34,345 nucleotides of DNA, taken from positions 1 to 34,345 of the forward strand of contig JAJFLO010000124.1 in the NCBI GenBank assembly GCA_021772675.1, in the 5' to 3' direction. Both the position numbers and the translations under genes were made by a program. Positions 7,170 to 24,246 of the stretch are shown piece by piece. Origin of the DNA: Verrucomicrobiota bacterium (GTDB taxonomy: Bacteria; Verrucomicrobiota; Lentisphaeria; JABSQK01; JAJFLO01). How positions within the stretch are numbered: the first letter of the stretch is position 1; the number at the start of each line of letters is the position of its first letter. The notes beneath the pieces were generated by a model. That model worked only from the letters and a program-made list of their open reading frames with translations. It had not been told where the DNA came from and made no database searches.

Positions 7170-7349
7170 GGAATGAGAATTAAATAACTTCCTAATTTGA
7201 AGTGTGTATTTTGTATTAGGTTTTGCCGAAACAATAGAGCAAAATCGCAGTAATAGTATGCCTATTTCGAGGGCTTTTGAGATTGAGTTTCGACGAAAGA
7301 TGACATGAAAGATATGTTTAAAATTAGGAAGTTATTTCATTCTCATTCC
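7170..7349. mobile_element. MITE-like insertion between kinase and regulator
   Basis: 29-bp terminal inverted repeats (7170-7198 and 7321-7349; starting GGAATGAGAAT, one mismatch) are flanked by direct TTA trinucleotides (7167-7169 and 7350-7352). The 180-bp unit has no ORF. It supplies the present stop codon of the kinase at 7343-7345. Removing the unit and one TTA leaves a kinase frame that reads eight or nine residues further (KNDEYDNKI) to a TAG ending 12 bases before the regulator's ATG. Confidence 0.75.
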
Positions 7350-10300
7350 TTAGCTCTCAAAAAGTTTTTTATGCCGTCAATTTCGGCATTGTCAAGCAGT
7401 TCGTGAATCGCTTGTGCAATAGCATTGCCCGATGCGCCGAGGTTACGCACCTCCTCAAGAATCTCTTCAATTGCCAATTCGTCGCCGTAGTCCGCCGCTT
7501 CACGCAGTGATGTGAGCACGTGTTCCGGTAGAATTTCTACAGGACTCAACGACTTCCCTTGTGGATTCGGAGGATGAGGCGGACGGACGTCAAGTTCAAC
7601 GTTTAGGTTACGGCTCAGGCGCTCACAGATTTGCTTTCGAGTAAACGGTTTGGCGATGACATCGTCGAAACCCGCCGCCAGATAATCTCGATGTTGACCG
7701 GCCAATATCGAAGCGGAAACGGCGACAAACTTGACCTCCGTTTTTCCCATGCTGGAACGGATTGCCTGCAGCGCTTCCACCCCATTCATCTTTGGCATCA
7801 AAATGTCCATAAACACAATATGAACCGGCTGCGATTGCACCATTTCTACGGCTTCCGGACCGTTTGTCGCTTCAGTGACTTCGACACCGATGTCGGTCAA
7901 CATCGCCGAAAGTACATCTCTTTGGTTCTGAAGGTCATCCACAATCAGCGCCCAAATAATTTGATCCTGGACACGCGGACGCAGGGCGGGATCGTTAGTG
8001 GTCGCCGGCAACGCATGCCGAATGGCGGCGAGAGGAATAGTGAAAAAGAACCGAGAACCACGATCGACATCCGATTCGAACTTGATTTGGCCGCCCATCA
8101 GTTCGATTTGGCTTTTCGATATTTTTAGCCCGAGTCCAGTTCCATCGCGCTTCCGTCCCTGCTCACTTTGAACAAAGGGTTCGAAAATGGTCGTCTGCTC
8201 TGAGATCGGGATGCCAACTCCCGTATCTCTAACCTCGAAATGATAATGCCCTTCGTGGCTTTCTCGGGTGACGCTAAGAGTGATTTGACCATGCTCGGTA
8301 AATTTCAGTGCGTTGTCGAGTAGGTGAAGTAAAATTCGTTTCAGTTTGCTTTCATCCGCGTGGACCCGGATTGGATCAGTGTCGTTGACAATTCCCTCGA
8401 TACACCAGCGAATTCTTTTGGTTTCACAACCCGATCGAATCATGACGGACAACTCGTTCACAAGTTGCGTAAGGGAGAAATCGACCGGGTGCAATTCCAT
8501 ATGGCCAGCCTCGATACGGGATAAATCGAGTATGTCGTTTACCAGGGTTAACAGCACATTGGCGCTTTGTTCGATTGTTTCTACCTCTTTGCCGGCGCTT
8601 TCGTTTCCGTTCAGCAGTTGGGTGTTGCCGATGATGATATTTAGCGGCGAACGAATTTCGTGGTTCATATATGCAAGAAATGCGCTTTTGGCGCGATTGG
8701 CGGCTTCCGCTTTCTCCTTTGCATCATTAAGCTCCCGGGTTCGTTGCGCCACCTGTTTCTCCGTCGTTTCATATTGGCGGGCATTGTCAATGGAAATAGC
8801 CGCTTGTGTGCACAGGAGGATTAACATCTCTATTCGTCCGGCGGTAAACGCCCCCTGTATGAGGTTGTTTTCAAGATAGAGGACGCTGTTAAGCCTGCCT
8901 TGACTGACTATTGGTAAACAAAGGATCGATCGTGGTTTATGCTCGACGATGTAAGGATCTTGGTTGAACCTTCCCTGTACAGGGTTGTTCTCGACAACGT
9001 ATTCGCCAGCCCTGACGACGAAGTTTACAATGCTTTCGGGAATTGACCTGTTTCCACGGACCGGAAGTGATTTCAGTAACTCAATTGAATTCGTTTTTGT
9101 GGTGTCATTGAGCGCCTCTATCATGAGTTGGCCGTTTCGTTCCAACATGAGAACTCCTTTCTGCGCGCCGGCATTCTGGACAACGATCTTCATGATTTTC
9201 GACAAGAGTCGCTCGAGAATAATTTCATCGGAGATGGCTTGCGACGCTTTAAGTATCGACTCTAAATCCAAAGAAAAATGGGCTTCTTGCATGGTGGGCT
9301 CGGTCAGTTTTTTGGACGTGTTATGCAGGGCTGAAGGCAACGGTTTGCTTAGCCATTGGGGATACCGTTCTTCCAAGTCATTGACTTTAGCGATGGCTCC
9401 CCATCGTGCATAGGTATGACGGGCGCTCATCAGGTAACTGCCGGCAAATTTGCCTTTCCCATTCTCAAGGCAACATTTCCCAGCTAATTCGCAGGCCAGC
9501 GCTTCGTCGTTTAGATAGTCGTATTTCTGGGCGTCGGCGATTGCTTTGTCGTAGAATTTGATCGCCTTCCAGACTTCTCCCGCAATGCGAAGTCTTTCTG
9601 CTTCGACCAGTGTGTATTTATGTTGGTAATTCATCGGCGCATGAGCGGCGTAGCGCTTCATCAGTCTTTGGTTGGTTCGAACCTTCTTAAGGAGTTTCCT
9701 TATTTCGGATTTCTTTGCTGTGGGGATCAATGCCAGGCTGGCCAGGGAGGAATAGAAACTGGCGACGGGGACGATTATCCCTCCTTGAAAGTTACCTACA
9801 TTATCGTGGTAAAGCGCGGCATACTCCACCGCCGCGCGATAATCCGAAAATAGATAACATAGGATGACTTTGTCCAGATATAATCCGGCTAACCTCTGCC
9901 TGCTGCCCTCGTCCTCAAGTAATCGAACGAGTTTGCTTTCGTCAAAATGACTCCCGACAAGTTGACACGGATTCTTACAACCTTTCCCCGTCAAATTTAG
10001 AATCACCTGATAAAACTGTTCCAGGCCGAACATGGCGCCTTGTTTGCCGAGTTGTAACACTCCGCGATAGTGGCGGGCTTGCTGTTCCAGTTTGTGTAGT
10101 TCAACGCCGACGAAATGCGTGTGAAGCAACTCGATGCTAATACTTCCGGCCGTTGTCAGTAGATCCCCGTTATCCATGCTCTGTTGAACGACATGTTTTA
10201 ACGGTTCGAGGGTATCCCGGACGTGGGTTTTCCAATGGCTCAAAAACCAATTGAACGTTAATTGAACTTGTGTTTTACGCATACCGGAATCAAGCCTTTC

Positions 10301-13198
10301 GGCGAGGTTGACAGCAAACACGCCGAACTTATAACCATAATCGACGTCTCTTACCGACTGAATAATTCCGTAGGTCAAGTAAAAGTGCGCAGCACTCCGG
10401 GGATGGCCAAGTTTTAGAAACAACCTGATCATTCTTAGCGAGATCTGAGCATAGACATCGGGCGAGGCATCTAAAACCGCGACGCTCCAAAATCCCTCCG
10501 TGATGAGGCGCAATGCAGCTAATGTCATTTCGTCCGTCATCTCCGGGGAATCCATCAGGTTTGAAACAGACTTCCCGTTCAAGGCAGATTGAACTTTACG
10601 TAGTTCGAAATAAATGCCAATCTTTGACGGTTTACCGGGAACGTCAATTCCCAACTGTCTCAGCACAGCCTCACCCTCAATACGGAGATTCGTTAGTTTG
10701 CTTTGTGTGTAGTAGGATTGAAATCGGATTTCAAGAACGCCAATTTTGTCAAGAATCGTATGCGCGTTATCGAGCACGGCTTCGATAAAGGCGTCCATCT
10801 GTTGAAAGTCTCGGCAAAGATAGGCGGCTTTTGCCACGTGCGTGTTAAACTCAAGAGTCAACGGGTACTGAGATGTCCAGCAGTCTTCCGGTAACAGCCC
10901 CAATCCGATTTTCAAATAGGTGTATGCGGCCTGATTTGCAGCAGACGCCAGCGCTTTCAACCCTGCGGCAAGATTCAGGCGTTGCAGTTGCTCGAGTTCA
11001 TGAGGGCAGACGATCGAAACAACACCCAAATTAAGGTGTTCAACCATTTCGAAGAGTGGTTTTTCGAGGGTGGAACATTGATCGCGGAGTGACCGCCCGA
11101 TGCTCAAATGGACGGCTGGCGCCTCGGATTCGCTGAGTAATGAATAGGCGGCCTGTTGAATCTGATCATGGGCAAACTTGTACAAGGCGACGTCTGCGAC
11201 CGGAGGATCAAAGCCATCTTCAACAGGCACTATCACGCCTTCCATTATCGCATCTTCTAATATTCCGGCTGTTTCCGTCAATGAACTTTGGCTAACAAGC
11301 GAGAGAATCCCGAGATCGAAACGATTGCCGATACATGCGGCGAGCGTCAGGACTTTCCGGGTGTCGTCATGAAAATTCCGGATCTGGGCAATCGTCAATT
11401 CAACCACGTTGTCGGTTATCACCAATCCGGAAATTTTGTTCGCATTCCAGTGCCATACGCCATTGTCAAAATCGAAAGCTAACAGCTCACGCGAATAAAT
11501 CTCTGCAAGAAACTGTTTAACGAAGAACGGATTACCGTGAGTGCGCTGCATGACCAGAGACGTCAGGGGTTCTGTTGCGCGTCTATTGGACGCTAATGCC
11601 TCGCTTATCAATCGATTGACGGTCGTGAATGCCAACGGCTTTAGGGCTATGGTCGTAATTCTGGTCCCGGTCTTCCGTATGGCCGCCATGGTGTCTGTTA
11701 CGCGGGGATTGGGTGACGCCTCCGCATCGCGGTGTGCGACAATGAGAAATATACATTGGAGTTTGGGACTGGCCGTCAGGGTTTCGATCAGTTGTAGCGA
11801 CGATGCGTCGGCCCATTGCAAGTCATCGAGAAATAATACCAATGGTTGTTCCTGAGAAGCGAGCGCACGCGAGAAATTCCGGAAGACCATGTTGAACCGG
11901 TTTTGGAAAGAATCGGGAGGAACGTCTGGTACCGGAGACTGTGGACCGATAATCGATTCTACAGCCGGTATCAGATCAGTAATTATACGTCCATTCGGTC
12001 CCACTGCGTTGAGGATCCGAGTCTTCCATATAGCCAGTTCGCCCTCGGCTTTCGCCAGTAGCTGCTTAGTTAAATCGTTAAGTGCTATGACGAATGCGCT
12101 ATAAGGAGTGTTATGTTGCAGTTGATCAAACTTGCCACTGACAAAATGTGCGTGTTGGCTCGGAATCGATTGTCGAATCTCGTGTACAAGGAGGGATTTA
12201 CCGATCCCGGGGGGGCCAACGACCGCTAGTATTTCCATGGTCCCACAGCAAACCCTGGCGAAGGCGTCGCGAATGGCATGTGACTCGGTTTCACGACCAT
12301 AAAATTTCAGAGGAACGCGAAATTGGGACGGTACATCTTGCGAGCCGGCTCCAAGGATTTCGATGCAACCTGCGGTCTTCCAGGAATCGCGGACCTCTTT
12401 CAGGTCTGCCAGTATGCCGAACGCGCTCTGATAACGATCTTCTGCCGTCTTAGCAAGTAATTTCGAGATCAGTTTTAAGACGACTTTAGGAATATCAGGA
12501 TGTGTTTCGTCCAACACATTCGGGATTTTTGCAATATGAGCGTGGATTAATTCCAATGGATCGGTGGCCGTAAACGGTAGAGAACCGGTTAGCATTTCGT
12601 AAAATGTAACACCGAGCGAATAGAAGTCTGTCCTATAGTCGACGCCGCGATTCACGCGACCGGTTTGTTCCGGCGACATGTACGGTAAGCTTTCTTCGGC
12701 GATGGTTGGTTCCGGAGCATCGTGAGATTTTCCAGGCGGCCGGGACGAAATGCCGAAGTCAATTAGTTTGGTTGCATAGGTCTTAGGATTGACCAGGATA
12801 TTGCGTGGCTTGATATCGTTATGCACAAATTGACACTTATGTACTTCACGCAAGCCTTGCGCGAGTTGTATACCGACATTCAGAAAACATGAGAATGTCA
12901 TACCCTTCGTCGGGATAACGTCAGCGAGGGACATTGCACCAAAGTCTTCGCTAATCAACGCGTATGTATTTCGATATCGATGTAATTCATAGTACTTGAG
13001 AATTGAAACACTCAAGAAACGTTTGCCGATATCGTACTCCCGCTTAAATTTGGCAATGTCCTTCATTGGCGGGAGATCATTCCTATGGATTTTAATGACG
13101 ACGGGCAGATCGTCTTTTAAGCGATGCCCTCTATACACAACGACTTTGGAACCTTGGTAAATTTTTTCTTCGATTTTATAGCCATCAACGGTAATCAT
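7343..13198 (-). CDS. Trifunctional Ser/Thr kinase, AAA ATPase and hybrid histidine kinase
   Basis: 1951 residues. The N-terminus is a Hanks-type kinase (about 8-270): Gly-loop 14-22, Lys36 in VVIKIH, catalytic HND (126-128, with Asp128) and DFG at 147-149; HND replaces the usual HRD. Next comes a large STAND/ORC-like ATPase (Walker A GPPGIGKS at 328-335, Walker B 'LVLFLDD' near 456) and a long helical TPR-like region to about 1290. A GAF domain (about 1305-1470), coiled coil, HisKA with His1513 in MNHEIRSPLN, HATPase ('DTGVGIP', 'GTGLGLKIS') and a receiver with Asp1798 complete it. No Hpt domain is seen in the tail. This architecture is a known family that integrates signals in large-genome bacteria; the ligand is unknown. 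No membrane segment is evident, so it is likely cytosolic. No clear ribosome site precedes the ATG. Base composition is richer in GC than the neighbours. Confidence 0.9.
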   Translation of the reverse strand: MITVDGYKIEEKIYQGSKVVVYRGHRLKDDLPVVIKIHRNDLPPMKDIAKFKREYDIGKRFLSVSILKYYELHRYRNTYALISEDFGAMSLADVIPTKGMTFSCFLNVGIQLAQGLREVHKCQFVHNDIKPRNILVNPKTYATKLIDFGISSRPPGKSHDAPEPTIAEESLPYMSPEQTGRVNRGVDYRTDFYSLGVTFYEMLTGSLPFTATDPLELIHAHIAKIPNVLDETHPDIPKVVLKLISKLLAKTAEDRYQSAFGILADLKEVRDSWKTAGCIEILGAGSQDVPSQFRVPLKFYGRETESHAIRDAFARVCCGTMEILAVVGPPGIGKSLLVHEIRQSIPSQHAHFVSGKFDQLQHNTPYSAFVIALNDLTKQLLAKAEGELAIWKTRILNAVGPNGRIITDLIPAVESIIGPQSPVPDVPPDSFQNRFNMVFRNFSRALASQEQPLVLFLDDLQWADASSLQLIETLTASPKLQCIFLIVAHRDAEASPNPRVTDTMAAIRKTGTRITTIALKPLAFTTVNRLISEALASNRRATEPLTSLVMQRTHGNPFFVKQFLAEIYSRELLAFDFDNGVWHWNANKISGLVITDNVVELTIAQIRNFHDDTRKVLTLAACIGNRFDLGILSLVSQSSLTETAGILEDAIMEGVIVPVEDGFDPPVADVALYKFAHDQIQQAAYSLLSESEAPAVHLSIGRSLRDQCSTLEKPLFEMVEHLNLGVVSIVCPHELEQLQRLNLAAGLKALASAANQAAYTYLKIGLGLLPEDCWTSQYPLTLEFNTHVAKAAYLCRDFQQMDAFIEAVLDNAHTILDKIGVLEIRFQSYYTQSKLTNLRIEGEAVLRQLGIDVPGKPSKIGIYFELRKVQSALNGKSVSNLMDSPEMTDEMTLAALRLITEGFWSVAVLDASPDVYAQISLRMIRLFLKLGHPRSAAHFYLTYGIIQSVRDVDYGYKFGVFAVNLAERLDSGMRKTQVQLTFNWFLSHWKTHVRDTLEPLKHVVQQSMDNGDLLTTAGSISIELLHTHFVGVELHKLEQQARHYRGVLQLGKQGAMFGLEQFYQVILNLTGKGCKNPCQLVGSHFDESKLVRLLEDEGSRQRLAGLYLDKVILCYLFSDYRAAVEYAALYHDNVGNFQGGIIVPVASFYSSLASLALIPTAKKSEIRKLLKKVRTNQRLMKRYAAHAPMNYQHKYTLVEAERLRIAGEVWKAIKFYDKAIADAQKYDYLNDEALACELAGKCCLENGKGKFAGSYLMSARHTYARWGAIAKVNDLEERYPQWLSKPLPSALHNTSKKLTEPTMQEAHFSLDLESILKASQAISDEIILERLLSKIMKIVVQNAGAQKGVLMLERNGQLMIEALNDTTKTNSIELLKSLPVRGNRSIPESIVNFVVRAGEYVVENNPVQGRFNQDPYIVEHKPRSILCLPIVSQGRLNSVLYLENNLIQGAFTAGRIEMLILLCTQAAISIDNARQYETTEKQVAQRTRELNDAKEKAEAANRAKSAFLAYMNHEIRSPLNIIIGNTQLLNGNESAGKEVETIEQSANVLLTLVNDILDLSRIEAGHMELHPVDFSLTQLVNELSVMIRSGCETKRIRWCIEGIVNDTDPIRVHADESKLKRILLHLLDNALKFTEHGQITLSVTRESHEGHYHFEVRDTGVGIPISEQTTIFEPFVQSEQGRKRDGTGLGLKISKSQIELMGGQIKFESDVDRGSRFFFTIPLAAIRHALPATTNDPALRPRVQDQIIWALIVDDLQNQRDVLSAMLTDIGVEVTEATNGPEAVEMVQSQPVHIVFMDILMPKMNGVEALQAIRSSMGKTEVKFVAVSASILAGQHRDYLAAGFDDVIAKPFTRKQICERLSRNLNVELDVRPPHPPNPQGKSLSPVEILPEHVLTSLREAADYGDELAIEEILEEVRNLGASGNAIAQAIHELLDNAEIDGIKNFLRAKE

Positions 13199-13270: not shown

Positions 13271-13321
13271 CAGTCTGCCCAGATTGACAAACGAATGTCG
13301 AATAATCGACTGCTTGCAGTA
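13271..13321 (+). repeat. Family A repeat, partial copy
   Basis: GATTGACAAACGAATGTCGA followed by ACTGCTTGCAGTA matches the right half of the copy at 23895-23984. It lies 87 bp upstream of the transposase remnant. Confidence 0.65.
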
Positions 13322-13407
13322 TAATGCAGAACATTATAAAAAACAGGGGATATGCTTTATTTTGAATATTATATGGGTATTTTGTTTAAAGATAGTTCTT
13401 TCATTTT

Positions 13408-14099: not shown

Positions 14100-15215
14100 T
14101 CAGCCCATCACATTCTGATAGCACTTCAGGTATTCACCAATTATTTTTTCTTTATTGAACTTTTCTACGGCACGCTGTCGCCCGTTTATTCCTAATTCTT
14201 GGGCAAAGTCCGCAGAGGAACAAATTTCGATAACGTGCTCTGCTAATTTCTGGTAATCCTTTGGATTTGCCATTAATCCGGTTTCTCCCTGAACCACAAC
14301 TTCGGGGATACCATCCACATTACTGCTGACAGTAGGAACTTCACATGCCATTGCCTCTAGCAGGACCATACCAAATGACTCCCTTAAACTAGGCTGCAAT
14401 ATACAATCAGCCATAGGAATTATATTTTCAACATTATCGATTTTCCCGAGAAAACAAACGTGATCACAGATCTTAAATTTTTTACACAATGTTTTAATCT
14501 CTCCAATACCAGGGCCATCACCAATCAATATTAGCTTCGCTTTGACTTTCCTTCTAACCTCATGAAAAACATTAATGACACCTTCTGGGTCCTTGGGTGA
14601 ACGAAAATTTGAAATATGCATGATGATTTTTTCGTCGTCTGCCGCAAGAGATGCCCGGCACTTACCTTTTGGAATCGGTTTAAATATTTCTGCATCAACA
14701 AAATTATATATCACCTCAATCTCGTTGGCGATGCCAATATATCGGTTCGTATGGTCTTTCTGAAACTGGGAAACTGTTGTCACTTTATCGCTTTGCTCTA
14801 TTCCGTATTTATTGAGCGAAAACAATGGCTTATTCTGCCCCACAATTGTGACATCGGTACCATGTAATGTCGTGACAATTTTGAATTCCCGACCACTGAC
14901 CTCCCTTGCTAAATGCGCACACAATGAATGTGGAATTGAATAATGAGCGTGAACAAGATCAAGATTATATTCCTTAACAACATCAATAATTTTTGCAGTG
15001 AGTGAAAAGGTATAAAGCGTTTGATTAAATAAGGGATAATTAATGGGATCAACCGAATGAAAATTAACATTCCGGTCAAACGTCGACAGCTTAAAAGGTA
15101 CCGAGTATGAGATGAAATGTACCTGATGGCCTAATTTTGCCAAATTGACCCCCAGCTCAGTTGCAATCAGCCCAGAACCGCCGATTGAGGGATAACATAC
15201 GATGCCAATATTCAT
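14100..15215 (-). CDS. bshA: N-acetyl-alpha-D-glucosaminyl L-malate synthase (bacillithiol step 1)
   Basis: 371 residues, the usual BshA length. It belongs to the GT4 (GT-B fold) glycosyltransferases and joins UDP-GlcNAc to L-malate, the first step of bacillithiol synthesis, in the cytoplasm. The N-terminus MNIGIVCYPSIGGSGLIATE with 'GGSG' is characteristic of BshA. The C-terminal half has 'FLGKIDNVENIIPMADCILQ' and the donor-site E-x7-E in 'ESFGMVLLEAMACEVP'. A ribosome site AAAGGA lies before the ATG. It is the last gene of the same-strand set methyltransferase, bshC, bshB1, bshA, separated from bshB1 by a 467-bp gap occupied by a MITE-like element. Confidence 0.93.
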   Translation of the reverse strand: MNIGIVCYPSIGGSGLIATELGVNLAKLGHQVHFISYSVPFKLSTFDRNVNFHSVDPINYPLFNQTLYTFSLTAKIIDVVKEYNLDLVHAHYSIPHSLCAHLAREVSGREFKIVTTLHGTDVTIVGQNKPLFSLNKYGIEQSDKVTTVSQFQKDHTNRYIGIANEIEVIYNFVDAEIFKPIPKGKCRASLAADDEKIIMHISNFRSPKDPEGVINVFHEVRRKVKAKLILIGDGPGIGEIKTLCKKFKICDHVCFLGKIDNVENIIPMADCILQPSLRESFGMVLLEAMACEVPTVSSNVDGIPEVVVQGETGLMANPKDYQKLAEHVIEICSSADFAQELGINGRQRAVEKFNKEKIIGEYLKCYQNVMG

Positions 15216-15250
15216 AGAATTTCCTTTGGAACTTAAGAATTGTTAATAGT

Positions 15251-15534
15251 TAGACCCCGTTCGAAAAGGTATTACGACAGCGCGCTTGCCTATTTCGGAT
15301 AACGTTTTCGTTTTTACGGAGCTATATTCGATGCTTGAGCATCGGATTCTCGCCGAAAAGACGAAAAATTGCCGAAAGAGACTGGCGCCCTAAGGGGTGG
15401 GGCGGATGAGGGGCATCATTCGACGGTAATCGCTAAGTTGATACCTATGAGGTATTAACGTGAGCAATTACCGTCGAAACCTGACCCACATGCGCTCCCA
15501 ACGCGGTTCGCAAGACCTTTTCGAACGGGGTCTA
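15251..15534. mobile_element. MITE-like cruciform between bshB1 and bshA
   Basis: Terminal arms GACCCCGTTCGAAAAGGT (15253-15270) and the exact reverse complement (15515-15532) are bordered by TA on both sides. Inside are a perfect hairpin CGATGC/GCATCG (15329-15344) and a stem TTCGACGGTAAT (15419-15430) with ATTACCGTCGAA (15467-15478). There is no ORF. The design is the same as the element at 13755-14023, with different sequence. Confidence 0.65.
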
Positions 15535-15682
15535 GTTAATAATTAACGACGAATTGATAAAGATTGAAACCGAAAACGGGAAAGATTGACCATTCACAAT
15601 GGGACGTCATCAATTCGCAATTAAAGTCTTGTTTGATATGTGTCTTGCCCAGCGACCCTTCAAAAGAGGATGCGTCTTCCCC

Positions 15683-16393
15683 CTACCCTTCTAATCTGTT
15701 TTTTAATGGATTATCAATCCTCAATGTTTCCTCTAAGATATACGGTTCTCCATACTTACAATTTATCAGATTGCCATAATATTTAAATCGGGAAATCATC
15801 AATTCTCTGAATTGTTGTGACCCGATTAACGTCTTTTCTTCTTTATTGGTGTCGGTATAAAATTGAGTACTATAAGCCTCGATCGTCTTCATTTTCCGAT
15901 CAAACTGATCTGAAACATCAATAACAAAGGACGGTTTTATATCCTGGTATTCCATATGGTAGATGAGTCGATATGGTCGCCACGGCTTATGCTCTGAGGG
16001 GAATTTACCGGCACCAGAAAAGAACAATACATTTTTTGCTAATGTCGAGACGGCGGTATGATCCGGATGCCGACATGGACCATATGGTGCGATGAGTACT
16101 TTGACTTTATACTTGCGAATAAAATTGACCACTAATATTCTGGTGACTTCATCATCTGCTAAGCCACTGTCCACCAAGCTGAGATTCTGTCGAATTTCAG
16201 GTTGAAGTAACAAATTTGACTCTGAAGTTTCACTATCCCGATCTTTGGTGGTACCCGATGTGGCTGCTTCGCCTTTGGTGAAATCCAGGATACCGACTTT
16301 ATACCCTTGTTCCCTAAATTTGATTATTGATCCACCGCAATAAAGCTCGGCATCATCGGGATGTGCTGCCAGAACTAAATAATCCAATTCCAT
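15683..16393 (-). CDS. bshB1: Bacillithiol biosynthesis deacetylase BshB1
   Basis: 236 residues, normal for BshB1. It is a zinc-dependent PIG-L/LmbE-family deacetylase that removes acetate from GlcNAc-malate (step 2 of bacillithiol synthesis). Visible metal and catalytic residues are AHPDDAE (10-16: His11, Asp13, Asp14) and HPDHTAVS (109-116: His112). The segment 'DFTKGEAATSGTTKDRDSE' corresponds to the 'GE-x-GTxG' stretch of the family, slightly unusual here. It lies between bshC and bshA on the same strand; a weak GAGAG ribosome site precedes the ATG. BshB2 or a mycothiol conjugate amidase would be alternatives, but the context favours BshB1. Confidence 0.92.
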   Translation of the reverse strand: MELDYLVLAAHPDDAELYCGGSIIKFREQGYKVGILDFTKGEAATSGTTKDRDSETSESNLLLQPEIRQNLSLVDSGLADDEVTRILVVNFIRKYKVKVLIAPYGPCRHPDHTAVSTLAKNVLFFSGAGKFPSEHKPWRPYRLIYHMEYQDIKPSFVIDVSDQFDRKMKTIEAYSTQFYTDTNKEEKTLIGSQQFRELMISRFKYYGNLINCKYGEPYILEETLRIDNPLKNRLEG

Positions 16394-16507: not shown

Positions 16508-16735
16508 CCTGGATTATTCATAAAATTTTGTGATGAAAGTTATTAGATTGCGTGAAATCAATGAGTTATGAATATCGTTTGCGTGCAGTCTTCCAGCTCG
16601 TAGAGCCTATAGCTCGGAGAGAATCGTGTTAAAAATCCGCCGTGGTGGAAACTATTTCGAACCAAAAAATCTTTATAACTCGTTTATATCACGTGACATA
16701 ATGACTCGTAATAGAAATTTTATGCATAATCCAGG
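16508..16735. repeat. Family B palindromic repeat, copy 1 (with internal extra sequence)
   Basis: Ends CCTGGATTATTCAT and TGCATAATCCAGG. The element is palindromic over about 70-base arms (GATTGCGTGAAATCAATGAG pairs with the right-hand CTCGTTTATATCACGTGA region). Compared with copies 2 and 3 it has about 50 extra bases near the centre (around 16593-16650). It lies in the gap between bshC and bshB1. Confidence 0.75.
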
Positions 16736-16787
16736 CGAATGCAGCAACAATTTTTCCTGACACCTGGCACCCTACAAGCAGCTACTA

Positions 16788-16878
16788 TACTGCAAGCAGT
16801 AGGTTTTTCGACATTCGTTATTCATTTCAGGCAACAATTTTACAGAAACCTGTCGAAATCCTGATGGTTGTCGGTATA
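16788..16878 (-). repeat. Family A repeat
   Basis: About 90 bp starting with TACTGCAAGCAGTA, then GTTTTTCGACATTCG..., CAGAAACCTGTCGAA and GATGGTTGTCGGTATA. TTTTCGACA pairs with TGTCGAAA. Other copies: 13271, 23019, 23895 and 27174. The family J element follows directly. Confidence 0.8.
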
Positions 16879-17086: not shown

Positions 17087-18661
17087 TTAACGATCAGTCT
17101 GAATCACATAATGTCCACATTCCAAAGGATCCATAATTTCCAGTAAATCACTAATAATAGACAAACCGTTTTGTTCAATAAAATAAAAAATATTAATTAA
17201 TCGCTCTTGCATCGAATTTTTAGGAAAAACACAACTAAAAAAGCGATCAATTCTGGCATTATCAATTTCACCCCGTCTTAAAAATTCTCTGGTAACCTGC
17301 TTTTCCAGCTTTTCCAATTGGAAACTTAAAACCGACTTAAATTTTTCTTTACGGTTCTTGTTGATTAAATCCGGCATTTCACAGTATAAATTCTCTACAG
17401 TTTCCATAAAGATTCGGTCCGCATTGAGAAAACCCTGCGTTTCATTTTCATTGAGTTTTTGTTGATGATAAAAAGATTGAGGACCCAGAAAATAATCATC
17501 AATTGTCAATCCCAGTTTATTTGCAGTCTTTATCTCCTTATGCGTTAATATAGTTCCATGATTTCTCGGCAATATAATCGGCATGTTGACATCGAATAAA
17601 TCAAATAGTTTATCCAGTTGGAGATGATACTTATATTCAGCTGGACCGGCGATATATGCCAGTGTCGGAATTATTTTTGACTGTAATACCGGTCTCAAGT
17701 AAGCACCAGTGGAAAAATCTGTAGGAGATGCCATGATTTCCTGGCAAATTGAGGATTTCGAAACCCAGTTATCATTGAGGAAAAAATTGTCGTCTTTATT
17801 TTTTATTTGATACCGAACCCCATCGTCATTTAGATAAAATAATCCAGTAGAATCATCGGTTACATTGAATGTAGGTGGAATTTTATTTTTCTGCAACACT
17901 TCACCCGTTTGCTGCAAACAATTTCTGATATCCTGACGAAGCTCGATGCCCTTCTTAAAAAATGATACTGATTTTTCCCGAAGTAATTTGGGTTCAATAA
18001 TAATCAAACCCGTCCCCTTAAATAGGCGGGCAATCACAGACGATGAAAATTCCCCGTAACTTTCAAAATCATTTGTTATTATCGATGTAATTTCCTTCTT
18101 ATGATTTATTTCTGAAATCGAATTTAAAAAATCCTGGACCAAATCTGAACATGCTGGATTTACCCCTAAATACTGTGCCGCAACTCCCTTTTTTCGAAAT
18201 AAAGCCGTCCAAGTCTTATCAGGATAGTGAAATGCTTCGACCTCACTCAAATCATGATCTTCTGTGGCGTTCCAAAAGACAGGGACGACAGGTGTCTTAA
18301 ATTGCGTTTCACAACGTTTTGCAAAGTTAATTGCAGTAATAATTTTATAAACCGTATACAACGGTCCAGTCAACATTCCAGCTTGCTGACCCGTAACCAC
18401 GGCAACTGAACGAGGTTCCTTTAATCGGTTACAATTAGACAACGCCAGCGAATCATTGCCGATTATTTTATTATAATCTGAGAAAGATTCCGACAAAAAT
18501 ACCCGATCATAGTCTGATCGCGCTAAAATGTGTTCATAACAGCCTGCCCATGCGGTCGGGGAATAAGGATCGCGTCTCTGAAATGCAGAGGTAAATTCGT
18601 TTTTAAGAAGATAGTCTTCGACCAGATTTAAATTATGAATCGTGACAGTCAATTTTTTCAC
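17087..18661 (-). CDS. bshC: Putative cysteine ligase BshC (bacillithiol final step)
   Basis: 524 residues, close to the family's roughly 540. BshC is thought to add L-cysteine to GlcN-malate to give bacillithiol. The hallmark 'AVVTGQQAGMLTGPLYTVYK' near residues 88-107 is a nucleotidyltransferase-like BshC signature, followed by 'PVFWNATEDHDLSEV'; 'RPVLQSKIIPTLAYIAGPAE' and a C-terminal coiled-coil region ('FQLEKLEKQVTREFLRRGEI') also fit. The annotated start is GTG (18659-18661), but a TTG three codons in has the better spaced AGGTG ribosome site, so the start may be at 18652. The gene overlaps the upstream methyltransferase by 20-29 bases, suggesting translational coupling. Confidence 0.93.
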   Translation of the reverse strand: MKKLTVTIHNLNLVEDYLLKNEFTSAFQRRDPYSPTAWAGCYEHILARSDYDRVFLSESFSDYNKIIGNDSLALSNCNRLKEPRSVAVVTGQQAGMLTGPLYTVYKIITAINFAKRCETQFKTPVVPVFWNATEDHDLSEVEAFHYPDKTWTALFRKKGVAAQYLGVNPACSDLVQDFLNSISEINHKKEITSIITNDFESYGEFSSSVIARLFKGTGLIIIEPKLLREKSVSFFKKGIELRQDIRNCLQQTGEVLQKNKIPPTFNVTDDSTGLFYLNDDGVRYQIKNKDDNFFLNDNWVSKSSICQEIMASPTDFSTGAYLRPVLQSKIIPTLAYIAGPAEYKYHLQLDKLFDLFDVNMPIILPRNHGTILTHKEIKTANKLGLTIDDYFLGPQSFYHQQKLNENETQGFLNADRIFMETVENLYCEMPDLINKNRKEKFKSVLSFQLEKLEKQVTREFLRRGEIDNARIDRFFSCVFPKNSMQERLINIFYFIEQNGLSIISDLLEIMDPLECGHYVIQTDR

Positions 18662-19376
18662 CTACCATTATCAGTCGACTTGAAGTATTTTTGAATGGTT
18701 TTCCAATGACATCTCCAAACGCATGCGTAATCTTCAAATTCAAGGATGAACAAAATTGATTAAAATCAGCCAAATCATAAAGTTTAACGCTTTCAAAGTA
18801 AGATCGTTCACCCTTAGCATCTTCAACAACCAACTCTTTTTCTACCGTGTTTAAATCCGTATTTATCCATCGCTTCTGTTTCACTGTGAAATCATCATAA
18901 CAACGGAGATCGTTTTCTCTCAAATTATCTCTGACATGTTCGGCATTGAGATAATCGATTACAAACCGACCATTTGATTTTAACACCCGATAAATCTCAC
19001 GCAACACCCCTATATTTTCAGAATCCTGGTGGAAATAACCAAAGCTGGAAAAAAATGAAAAGACAAAATCAAACGATTGGTTAAATGGCAGATGTCTCAT
19101 GTCTCCCAGAATAACTCGACCCGCTAGTTTTTTTATTTCAACGGCATTTTCTAACAATGGCTGAGACAAATCCAGTCCATAGGTATTAACTCCCCGGCTG
19201 AGCAGGTATGATAAATGACGACCAAAACCACAACATAAATCTAAACACAATGAGTCCGTTCCCAGATTCAAAAAATGCAATAGCTGATCAATGGTAATCG
19301 TCGCCTCGGTCTGACTGCGATGCTTGTAGATATTAATGTAGTCTTCTGTAAAGGCTTCTTTATACCAATTTTTCAT
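18633..19376 (-). CDS. SAM-dependent methyltransferase, candidate N-methyl-bacillithiol enzyme
   Basis: 247 residues with a class I Rossmann methyltransferase fold: motif I in 'SLCLDLCCGFGRHLSYLL' (about 40-57), an acidic end of strand 2 in 'TYGLDLSQPLL', motif 'GDMRHLPF', and 'FSFFSSFGYFHQDSENIGVL' followed by 'REIYRVLKSNGRFVIDYL'. No metal or membrane segment. Its 3' end overlaps bshC, and it is first of the four same-strand genes, so it probably acts on a compound of that pathway. In green sulfur bacteria a SAM methyltransferase (NmbA) makes N-methyl-bacillithiol; that this protein does the same is inference from position. A general small-molecule methyltransferase is the alternative. Confidence 0.85.
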   Translation of the reverse strand: MKNWYKEAFTEDYINIYKHRSQTEATITIDQLLHFLNLGTDSLCLDLCCGFGRHLSYLLSRGVNTYGLDLSQPLLENAVEIKKLAGRVILGDMRHLPFNQSFDFVFSFFSSFGYFHQDSENIGVLREIYRVLKSNGRFVIDYLNAEHVRDNLRENDLRCYDDFTVKQKRWINTDLNTVEKELVVEDAKGERSYFESVKLYDLADFNQFCSSLNLKITHAFGDVIGKPFKNTSSRLIMVGEKIDCHDS

Positions 19377-20013: not shown

Positions 20014-20079
20014 GTTGATCCGTGAAAATCCGCGGTTAAGTTAAATTTTGATTCTGCTGTACAGCAGAATGCCGCGCTA
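20014..20079 (+). repeat. Family G repeat, copy 1
   Basis: 66 bp, GTTGATCCGTGAAAATCCG through TACAGCAGAATGCCGCGCTA, matching 33434-33499 with about four differences. The TTCTGCTGTACAGCAGAA part is a palindrome. It directly abuts the family B copy at 20081. Confidence 0.75.
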
Positions 20080-20080
20080 G

Positions 20081-20255
20081 CCTGAATAATTCATAAACTT
20101 TCGTAGTGAGAGTCATTAGATTGTGTGAGATCAATGAGTTATTAATTTTATCCGCGTACAGGAATAGTGAACTATTTCGAACCCGGATAATTTTGTAACC
20201 CATTGATGTCTGATGATATTATGGCTCGTAATAAAAAGTTTATGAACTATTCAGG
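20081..20255. repeat. Family B palindromic repeat, copy 2
   Basis: 175 bp with inverted ends CCTGAATAATTCATAAACTT and AAGTTTATGAACTATTCAGG, and TA one base outside both ends. A central AATAGTGAACTATT hairpin is present. The right end is 8 bases from the stop codon of the YqjE-like gene. Confidence 0.8.
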
Positions 20256-20262
20256 CTAAATA

Positions 20263-20652
20263 CTACTTTTCTGAAAAAACATCATCCAGCATCGGATCGC
20301 AATCTGTATATTTAAGCCATTTTTTTTCAGAGCAGAAAATTGAGAAAATGGCGAGCGGAACAAAGCAAAATGTCGCCCCTCCTAGAAAAAGACAAACGAC
20401 TGCTATTTTAATTCCCAATTTCATCATAACCACAATAAAACCCGTCGCGATCAACATCGCAAAACCGCACGTAAAAACGCTATATAAAAAAAGCAATCCT
20501 GTACCACTGAGAAATATCAGGTGAACTTTCTTAACAATCTTAATACGGCGACGAGCAACCTCGATCTTTAATAACTTAAGAGACGTCTGTCGGCCGACAC
20601 TCAAAATTGGATTTATGATGTTACCAATTATTGAATTAAAAATATTCTTCAT
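20263..20652 (-). CDS. YqjE-like small membrane protein (phage holin superfamily 6 type)
   Basis: 129 residues. A basic amphipathic N-terminus ('LLKIEVARRRIKIVKKVHLI') leads into two long hydrophobic segments (about 43-75 and 80-108), then a short acidic tail 'DCDPMLDDVFSEK'. Architecture and partner fit the YqjE/holin-like inner-membrane family that is paired with DUF883/YqjD proteins in other bacteria; the sequence match itself is loose. It lies downstream of the DUF883 gene, and the two are separated by 227 bp filled mostly by a family B repeat, so they were probably once closer. No clear ribosome site is seen. Molecular function unknown. Confidence 0.65.
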   Translation of the reverse strand: MKNIFNSIIGNIINPILSVGRQTSLKLLKIEVARRRIKIVKKVHLIFLSGTGLLFLYSVFTCGFAMLIATGFIVVMMKLGIKIAVVCLFLGGATFCFVPLAIFSIFCSEKKWLKYTDCDPMLDDVFSEK

Positions 20653-20691
20653 TGTGCAAAAGATAGATTATTATAGTTGGATAATTGCTAA

Positions 20692-20866
20692 CCTGGATTA
20701 TTCATAAAGTTTTGTAATGAGAGTCATCAAATTGCGTAATATCAATGAGTTATGAATATTATTTGCGTGCAGGAATAGTGAACTATTTCGAACCCGAAGA
20801 ACTTTATAACTCGTTGATATTATGTGATATGACGATTCGTAATAGAAAGTTTATGAATAATCCAGG
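20692..20866. repeat. Family B palindromic repeat, copy 3
   Basis: 175 bp with ends CCTGGATTATTCATAAA and TTTATGAATAATCCAGG, and TA near both borders. The whole unit can fold into one imperfect hairpin of about 70-base arms with an AATAGTGAACTATT tip. It lies between the two YqjD/YqjE-like genes, 13 bases after the stop of the first. Confidence 0.85.
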
Positions 20867-20879
20867 CTAATAGGATAAA

Positions 20880-21218
20880 TTAGTCTTTGCGTCCCATAAT
20901 GTAGCCGATCAACAGGGTACAGAACGCTGCTCCGCCAATATAAGGCCATGGATTGTTATGCACATTTTGATCAATTTCAGTCGCAATTTCTTTAACTTTA
21001 TCTTCACTTATTTCACATACTTTTGATGCGGTATCTGTAGCAGATTTCTTAAATGAATCAACTGAATCTTTAGAATCAAAACTAGCAAAAGTCTCCTTTA
21101 TATTCTTATACTTGTTAGACAACAAGTCTTGAATTTCTTGCTTTTTACTTTTTGCAGCATCATCAAGCATTTTTAATGCTTCAGACAGCTTATCATTGCT
21201 TGAGCTTGTCTTTTCCAT
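20880..21218 (-). CDS. DUF883/ElaB-YqjD-like tail-anchored protein
   Basis: 112 residues: a charged, helical, coiled-coil-like body (1-85, rich in Lys, Asp, Glu and Ser) and one C-terminal membrane segment ('NPWPYIGGAAFCTLLIGYIM', about 88-108) closing with a GRKD tail. The 'NPW' plus glycine-containing helix is the typical end of the DUF883 family, some members of which bind ribosomes and sit in the inner membrane in stationary-phase E. coli. The role here is not known. A GGGGA ribosome site precedes the ATG. It faces away from the isomerase gene across a 383-bp shared upstream region. Confidence 0.75.
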   Translation of the reverse strand: MEKTSSSNDKLSEALKMLDDAAKSKKQEIQDLLSNKYKNIKETFASFDSKDSVDSFKKSATDTASKVCEISEDKVKEIATEIDQNVHNNPWPYIGGAAFCTLLIGYIMGRKD

Positions 21219-21601: not shown

Positions 21602-22654
21602 ATGACTACAAGTTTGCAAAAACTAAAAAATACGAGTTACCTAACTATTTTCATAACATTGATTGCTATGATAAATCCCGTTGCCAAAGCATCTGAACTA
21701 CCAATCAAAGATCTAAAAAATGGTATATACGCGGACATAAAAACTTCAAAAGGATCGATTCTCTTGGAATTATATTATCAAAAGGTTCCACTTACCGTTG
21801 CTAATTTTATTGGATTAGCTGAAGGAACAATTGATTCCAATAAACCTGAAGGAACCAAATTTTATAATGGATTAGTCTTTCACCGGGTTATCCCGAATTT
21901 CATGATACAAGGGGGTTGCCCACTCGGCAATGGAACCGGCGGTCCAGGGTATAAATTTCCTGATGAATTTGATCCATCCCTTAAACACAGCGGTCCAGGC
22001 ATACTTTCGATGGCAAATTCAGGGAAAGACACAAATGGCAGCCAATTTTTCATCACTCATAAAGCGACTCCCTGGTTAGATAACCGGCATTCAGTATTTG
22101 GAAAGGTTTTGCAGGGCCAAGACGTTGTTGATAAAATCGCGAAAAACGATAAGCTTGAGACAATGAATATCATTAGAGTCGGTGATGACGCAAAGAATTT
22201 CAAATCAGATAAGGCGAGTTATGATAAACGACGAAACTCAGTTAAAAACGAGCAAAAACAGACGGAAAAGGCGGCCCAGGCAAAGATCGACGCTATCATA
22301 AACGAAAAATGGCCAAACCCGATTAAAACGACATCTGGTTTAAGATACGTCGTATTGAAAGAAGGTACTGGCAATAAACCTAAAAAAGGAACCAAAGTAA
22401 AGGCCCATTATACCGGAACGCTTGTTGACGGAAAAAAATTTGACAGTTCGCGTGATCGTAATCAACCGTTTGAATTCAATGTGGGTGCTGGCCAGGTTAT
22501 TAAAGGTTGGGATGAAGGATTTTTAGACATGAAAAAGGGAGAACAACGCATATTGATCATTCCATATCAATTAGCTTATGGCGAACGCGGAGCTCCGCCA
22601 CGAATTCCGCCTAAAGCAACACTTATTTTTGATGTTGAACTACTTGATTTTTAA
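21602..22654 (+). CDS. Exported peptidyl-prolyl isomerase, cyclophilin-FKBP fusion
   Basis: 350 residues. A signal peptide (1-30, site 'AKA-SEL') points to the periplasm or cell envelope. The cyclophilin domain covers about 38-195 ('[20 protein letters not shown]', '[20 protein letters not shown]'). A lysine-rich linker leads to an FKBP domain at about 255-350 ('[19 protein letters not shown]', '[14 protein letters not shown]', '[20 protein letters not shown]'). Both are proline isomerase folds, so it likely helps exported proteins fold. The cyclophilin tryptophan is kept ('[13 protein letters not shown]'). AGGAAG lies 8 bases before the ATG. The stop TAA runs directly into the left end of a family J repeat. 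Confidence 0.92.
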
Positions 22655-23517: not shown

Positions 23518-23713
23518 CCTGCATTATTCATAAACTTTTGTAGTGAGAGTCATCAGATTGCGTGAGATGAATGAGTTATGAATTTCATTTGCGTGCAGAA
23601 ATAGTGTTGAAAATTCGCCATGGTGGAAACTATTTCGACCCCGAATAACTTCACAACTCGTTGATATTATGTGATATGATGACTCGTAATAGAAAGTTTA
23701 TGAATAATGCAGG
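23518..23713. repeat. Family B palindromic repeat, copy 4
   Basis: Ends CCTGCATTATTCATAAAC and GTTTATGAATAATGCAGG, with TTAG on the left and TTAG on the right just outside. The middle shares GTTGAAAATTCGCCATGGTG with copy 1. Free-standing between repeats. Confidence 0.8.
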
Positions 23714-24246
23714 TTAGAGCATGATAAAAACTAACTTGGTATTTTTGCATCTCATTTTTAGACCAGATTTGATCTCGTTTCGGTCAAAAAATCATCGAAA
23801 TAGTTCGCTATTCATGTGGCTTTTCTTGGTCAGCGTAATCAAATCTAACCCAAAACTGAGTGCAAAAACAATATTGATACAATTCGATAGGATTATACCG
23901 AAAGCCATCAGGTTTTCGACAGGTTTCTGTAAAATCACTGCCTAAATTGACAAACGAATGTCGAAAAACTTACTGCTTGCAGTATATACCAACTTATTTT
24001 TTATCAGGCCCTTAGAATAATTAGCCCATTTTTCTCACCAACGTCGTAACGAGAGGACTTAGATTGCGTCATTTGAGTATTTTACAGATGGATTGAGAAT
24101 GATTCCGCTGTCCGGCAGAAAGACACACTAAATCCGATAGTCAAGGTAAGATGCTGAAATAATGTGATATACGTGCTCAAAGTAGCTGCTTTGTGTGAAT
24201 GCGGGTTAGAGATAGACAATGGTAAATTTAACACAATAAAACCTGA
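23714..24246. other. Upstream region of the REC-kinase gene
   Basis: Gene-free apart from a family A copy at 23895-23984. The last 250 bases should contain the promoter of the kinase gene, but no clear promoter or ribosome site was recognised. Confidence 0.35.
23895..23984 (+). repeat. Family A repeat
   Basis: ACCGAAAGCCATCAGGTTTT through TACTGCTTGCAGTA. This is the copy most like the partial one at 13271-13321 (shared ATTGACAAACGAATGTCGA). Confidence 0.75.

Follow-up and report, generated by a model that had tools for sequence, protein, structure and literature searches.

Which reaction is catalyzed by a methyltransferase whose gene overlaps that of the enzyme completing bacillithiol? In the published pathway, BshA, BshB and BshC lead to bacillithiol, and NmbA methylates the amine of its cysteine moiety (PMC6282198, PMC12719100). 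For the methyltransferase of the window (the whole stretch of 34,345 nt analysed here), we put the probability that it is an orthologue of NmbA making N-methyl-bacillithiol at about 0.88; substrate and product we infer from homology, orthology by reciprocal match, conserved pairing and co-occurrence, all of which were computed. The original prediction had deduced the link to NmbA from gene position, and it now gains support from a best and reciprocal match to the enzyme of C. tepidum (CtNmbA, CT1040), from tree grouping, shared residues, the pairing with bshC and co-occurrence. That prediction had also ascribed N-methyl-bacillithiol to green sulfur bacteria, where it is indeed known, but the compound is not restricted to them: Polaribacter is another producer, and an enzyme from Paenibacillus has been proven in vitro (PMC6282198, PMC12719100). 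An NmbA-type enzyme has already been predicted in 1765 species (PMC12719100), and thiol content in Polaribacter and Thermus was predicted by gene content (PMC12719100, PMC6282198).

Four intact reading frames lie on the minus strand in the order nmbA, bshC, bshB1, bshA, which confirms the coordinates, the overlap and the same-strand arrangement originally proposed. The nmbA-like gene (18633–19376) encodes a class I SAM methyltransferase of 247 aa, the putative bacillithiol N-methyltransferase, assigned by phmmer, reciprocal match, tree and residues. It is followed by bshC for the cysteine-adding enzyme (17087–18652, with the open reading frame extending to a GTG at 18661; TIGR03998, 353.9 bits, cut-off 265.8), bshB1 for GlcNAc-malate deacetylase (15683–16393; TIGR04001, 214.1 bits, cut-off 182.5) and bshA for N-acetyl-glucosaminyl L-malate synthase (14100–15215; TIGR03999, 469.9 bits, cut-off 273.7); thus, all three Bsh enzymes are encoded within the window and score above the curated NCBIfam cut-offs. 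A scan for promoters and terminators gave scores no better than those of shuffled sequences.

The methyltransferase itself contains only generic Pfam methyltransferase domains and no NCBIfam family above cut-off, and databases alone therefore give it no name. Its best match among all PDB chains is 9RI2, that is, crystallised CtNmbA (phmmer E 4.8e-25, 91.6 bits; the next chain scores 53 bits), and the match spans residues 2–238. Conversely, CtNmbA searched against the 7.3-Mb genome finds the window gene (1.5e-24, 88.3 bits) well ahead of the next one (6e-7, 30.6 bits); the C. tepidum side of this reciprocal match is represented by the PDB chain set rather than by the whole C. tepidum genome. 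For a homologue of CT1040 to count as NmbA, published limits ask for E ≤ 1e-20 together with identity >25% and coverage >80% (PMC12719100), and the window protein falls inside these limits (4.8e-25; residues 2–238 of 247; 28%). Its identity to CtNmbA is 28–29%, which, CtNmbA being the only crystallised NmbA, is within the range where the substrate can change; to the NmbA-type proteins of Paenibacillaceae it is about 36–43%, and a Paenibacillus NmbA-type protein is 37% identical to CtNmbA. A tblastn search of plasmids returned a single match, in Paenibacillus, on a replicon of megaplasmid size.

Several other candidates were set aside. The families of UbiE (ubiquinone/menaquinone), BioC, and glycine/sarcosine and daptide methyltransferases match the window protein weakly at the domain level, all far under cut-off. 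Treponema proteins with a 25–26% match come from genomes without bshC and fall outside the NmbA group in the tree; the same holds for a protein of genome G109 (31%, E 9.5e-22), which is encoded among polysaccharide-type genes in a genome without bshC. As the latter reaches 9.5e-22 and still lies outside the group, passing an E-value of 1e-20 is by itself not enough to identify an NmbA.

The original prediction would have fallen had the protein grouped with unrelated methyltransferases. In a maximum-likelihood tree it is found on the NmbA side: a branch with moderate support (81/81) separates 17 other methyltransferases from a set made up of CtNmbA, the Paenibacillaceae proteins and the window group. 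The branch of CtNmbA is long, and a test of whether CtNmbA joins Paenibacillaceae to the exclusion of the window group gave a non-decisive p-AU of 0.168. Eleven residues (W4, F9, Y13, Y17, H19, R20, A25, R94, R169, E195 and R234) are identical in 18/18 NmbA-type proteins and are rarer or absent, most of them uncommon, in other methyltransferases. Y114/F115 of the window protein align with Y134/F135 of CtNmbA, which are SAM-site residues, and R20, R94, R169 and R234 align with R33, R114, R189 and R254; conserved arginines are described in the substrate cleft of CtNmbA, their positions not being named in the text (PMC12719100). Of the shared residues, E195 and those near the N-terminus are probably part of the cap reported in the same work. 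The window protein and CtNmbA are both class I SAM methyltransferases similar over their full length and share motif I (LDxxCGxGRH), an FSSFGYF segment, the N-terminal motif WxxxxF...YxxxYxHR and a C-terminal SxR.

Structure prediction is less telling, since the AlphaFold model of the window methyltransferase has a good core, but neither model nor Foldseek discriminates among methyltransferases: CypM ranked above NmbA in the fold search, and TM-scores were similar for several other N-methyltransferases. The crystal structure 9RI2 has an unusual split cap-sheet topology, and AlphaFold is reported to mispredict the cap in NmbA itself (PMC12719100). Natural-product N-methyltransferases such as CypM, CcbJ and CgnL share the fold and a four-strand cap at comparable TM-scores; however, they show only 17–23% identity, a far weaker sequence match, and belong to different pathways.

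CtNmbA and PpNmbA (from P. polymyxa) methylate bacillithiol in vitro, while disulfide, glutathione and glycine are not methylated by NmbA (PMC12719100). An improbable alternative is that the window enzyme serves the bacillithiol pathway with another substrate or at another position, that is, on GlcN-malate, on free cysteine before BshC, on the sulfur, or by a second methylation of bacillithiol yielding the N,N-dimethyl form. A gene probably coupled to bshC, whose close orthologues occur only with the pathway and whose product is yet only 28% identical to CtNmbA, could encode such an enzyme, and in vitro CtNmbA can also act on a by-product that is a secondary amine (PMC12719100); but the window protein retains the residues that CtNmbA has in common with the Paenibacillaceae set, the N-terminal motif included, and N-methyl-cysteine was never observed in C. 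tepidum by Hiras et al. (PMC6282198).

If the enzyme is NmbA, as we consider likely, the route would start with BshA joining GlcNAc and malate; BshB1 would take off the acetyl group, BshC would add cysteine to give bacillithiol, and the methyltransferase, with SAM as methyl donor, would methylate the cysteine amine of bacillithiol. YpdA, of the bacillithiol disulfide reductase family, would then keep N-methyl-bacillithiol reduced.

The junction of nmbA and bshC depends on where bshC starts. Its reading frame opens at GTG 18661, giving an overlap of 29 nt, while a start at TTG 18652 gives one of 20 nt (18633–18652, minus strand). The 20-nt version is conserved in two relatives, where bshC starts with TTG (locus L004) and ATG (L005), both closely preceded by a G-rich tract, which makes TTG 18652 the better choice. 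L004 is from an uncultured Lentisphaeria bacterium of the same genus, L005 from Verrucomicrobia bacterium OFTM198 of the same family; their methyltransferases are 82% and 52% identical to that of the window, the order nmbA–bshC–bshB1–bshA is kept in both, and the pathway genes of the relatives pass the cut-offs. In genome G005, which belongs to another family of the same order, the methyltransferase gene ends and bshC begins within a common ATGA, an overlap of 4 nt (ATGA overlap in L047); the contig ends inside this bshC, the N-terminus of which is readable. Hence the pairing with bshC, loss of which in relatives would have spoken against the original prediction, is retained in all three, and the overlap is not due to chance, as relatives at 82% and 52% protein identity still have both the pair and the overlap, and an ATGA link is found in another family. 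The 20 shared nucleotides probably link bshC translation to nmbA translation, and the last two enzymes would then be made together; since nmbA is upstream of and overlaps bshC, such coupling would make translation of bshC depend on nmbA.

Further, the two genes co-occur. Among 289 genomes of the phylum, bshC is present in three (this one, one of the same genus and one of the same family), and a close nmbA orthologue is present in exactly the same three; G005, a fourth genome of the same order, also has both. A further bshC on contig C63 of G005 is divergent from the ATGA-linked copy and cut at its own contig end, and as the assembly is estimated to be 6% contaminated, this gene may be a duplicate or may belong to a different organism. 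YpdA is over cut-off in all four Lentisphaeria genomes with bshC and nmbA (482 bits in this genome) and not over cut-off in another two genomes from the order, which both lack bshC; YtxJ is found in 2/4. A glutamate-cysteine ligase of the GCS2 type, the only type searched for, was not found in any of the four (4/4), in a search which detects GCS2 in five control genomes. A second YpdA-like stretch (G000:C263:2846–3780) is interrupted by several stop codons, changes frame, and is apparently a pseudogene.

It would be very improbable, and is strongly disfavoured, that an unrelated small-molecule or protein methyltransferase ended up next to bshC accidentally or by hitch-hiking. The generic Pfam domains and the missing NCBIfam assignment would fit such an enzyme, but overlap and order are conserved in two families of the order, the gene is the reciprocal best match of NmbA, and the tree sets it clearly apart from the genome's other methyltransferases.

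The arrangement differs from that of characterized systems. In C. tepidum, nmbA (CT1040) is, by locus number, far from bshA (CT0548), bshB (CT1419) and bshC (CT1558); in the window, by contrast, the four genes lie together, with nmbA overlapping bshC. NmbA-type proteins occur in 36/40 sampled genomes of Paenibacillaceae, as a single copy in all but one, and genome G295 also carries bshC; in Paenibacillus sp. 32O-W, however, the nmbA-like gene has a metallo-beta-lactamase-fold gene as its neighbour, while a different contig carries bshC. At this locus (L006, 8001–9742), the two adjoining genes overlap by 4 nt, and the second may encode a thiol-related partner. The overlapping nmbA–bshC arrangement was thus seen neither in C. 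tepidum nor in the Paenibacillus checked, and because the C. tepidum genes are unlinked, the linkage found here is independent genomic evidence for a role of NmbA in the bacillithiol pathway.

For Verrucomicrobia, Planctomycetes, Spirochaetes and others no low-molecular-weight thiol had been documented or predicted (Hiras et al. 2018). No paper pairing bacillithiol with Lentisphaerae was found in the literature searched; the supplementary species list of PMC12719100, which lay outside that search, may have an entry for Lentisphaerota/Verrucomicrobiota. The kind of enzyme is known; the present analysis adds the full pathway with YpdA in a Lentisphaeria order and the conserved nmbA–bshC overlap. 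The cluster predicts N-methyl-bacillithiol in one order of Lentisphaeria, with YpdA for its reduction, a service to the methylated thiol which we infer. It is conceivable, if unlikely, that N-methyl-bacillithiol is the main thiol of this order and that the coupled NmbA and BshC form a complex or channel in which methylation takes place during synthesis, leaving little free bacillithiol.

Ancestrally, the four genes form a single cluster, into which repeats have come to lie in the window. Its gaps between bshC and bshB1 (693 nt) and between bshB1 and bshA (467 nt) are both repeat-rich, whereas the closest relative has 85 and 9 nt at these places, and because repeat elements separate bshC, bshB1 and bshA, only the nmbA–bshC pair is certainly still tight. 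The first gap holds a MITE-like inverted-repeat element (16508–16735) with 21-nt terminal inverted repeats that are 95% complementary, the second gap another inverted-repeat element (15243–15542) with 35-nt arms (TTAGACCCCGTTCGAAAAGGT) that are 86% complementary; both are outside the pathway, and neither is assigned a strand. A reading of the cluster as a silent or degenerating remnant, split by such mobile repeats, has very little chance of being true, for in spite of the elements in both widened gaps the four frames are intact, the three bsh genes score above curated cut-offs and YpdA reaches 482 bits.

The MITE-like element, of approximately 200–230 nt and with terminal inverted repeats CCTGnATTATTCATAAA..., recurs in the window at 20076–20260, 20687–20871 and 23519–23716; genome-wide, at least 40 copies were scored among 404 candidate places, 83–94% identical to the copy at 23519. 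A third repeat, with ACTGCTTGCAGTATA and GACAAACGAATGTCGAA, is present in both orientations at 13276–13323, 16786–16833 and about 23945–23992. The cluster is flanked by genes for two small, membrane-associated-looking proteins (20263–20652 and 20880–21218) and a cyclophilin-FKBP fusion (21602–22654), and these three adjoin the cluster in L004 and L005, too. Elsewhere in the window, the minus strand encodes a protein of 1951 aa (7343–13198) which, judged by eye, appears to combine Ser/Thr kinase, AAA-like, GAF, histidine kinase and receiver parts in one chain.
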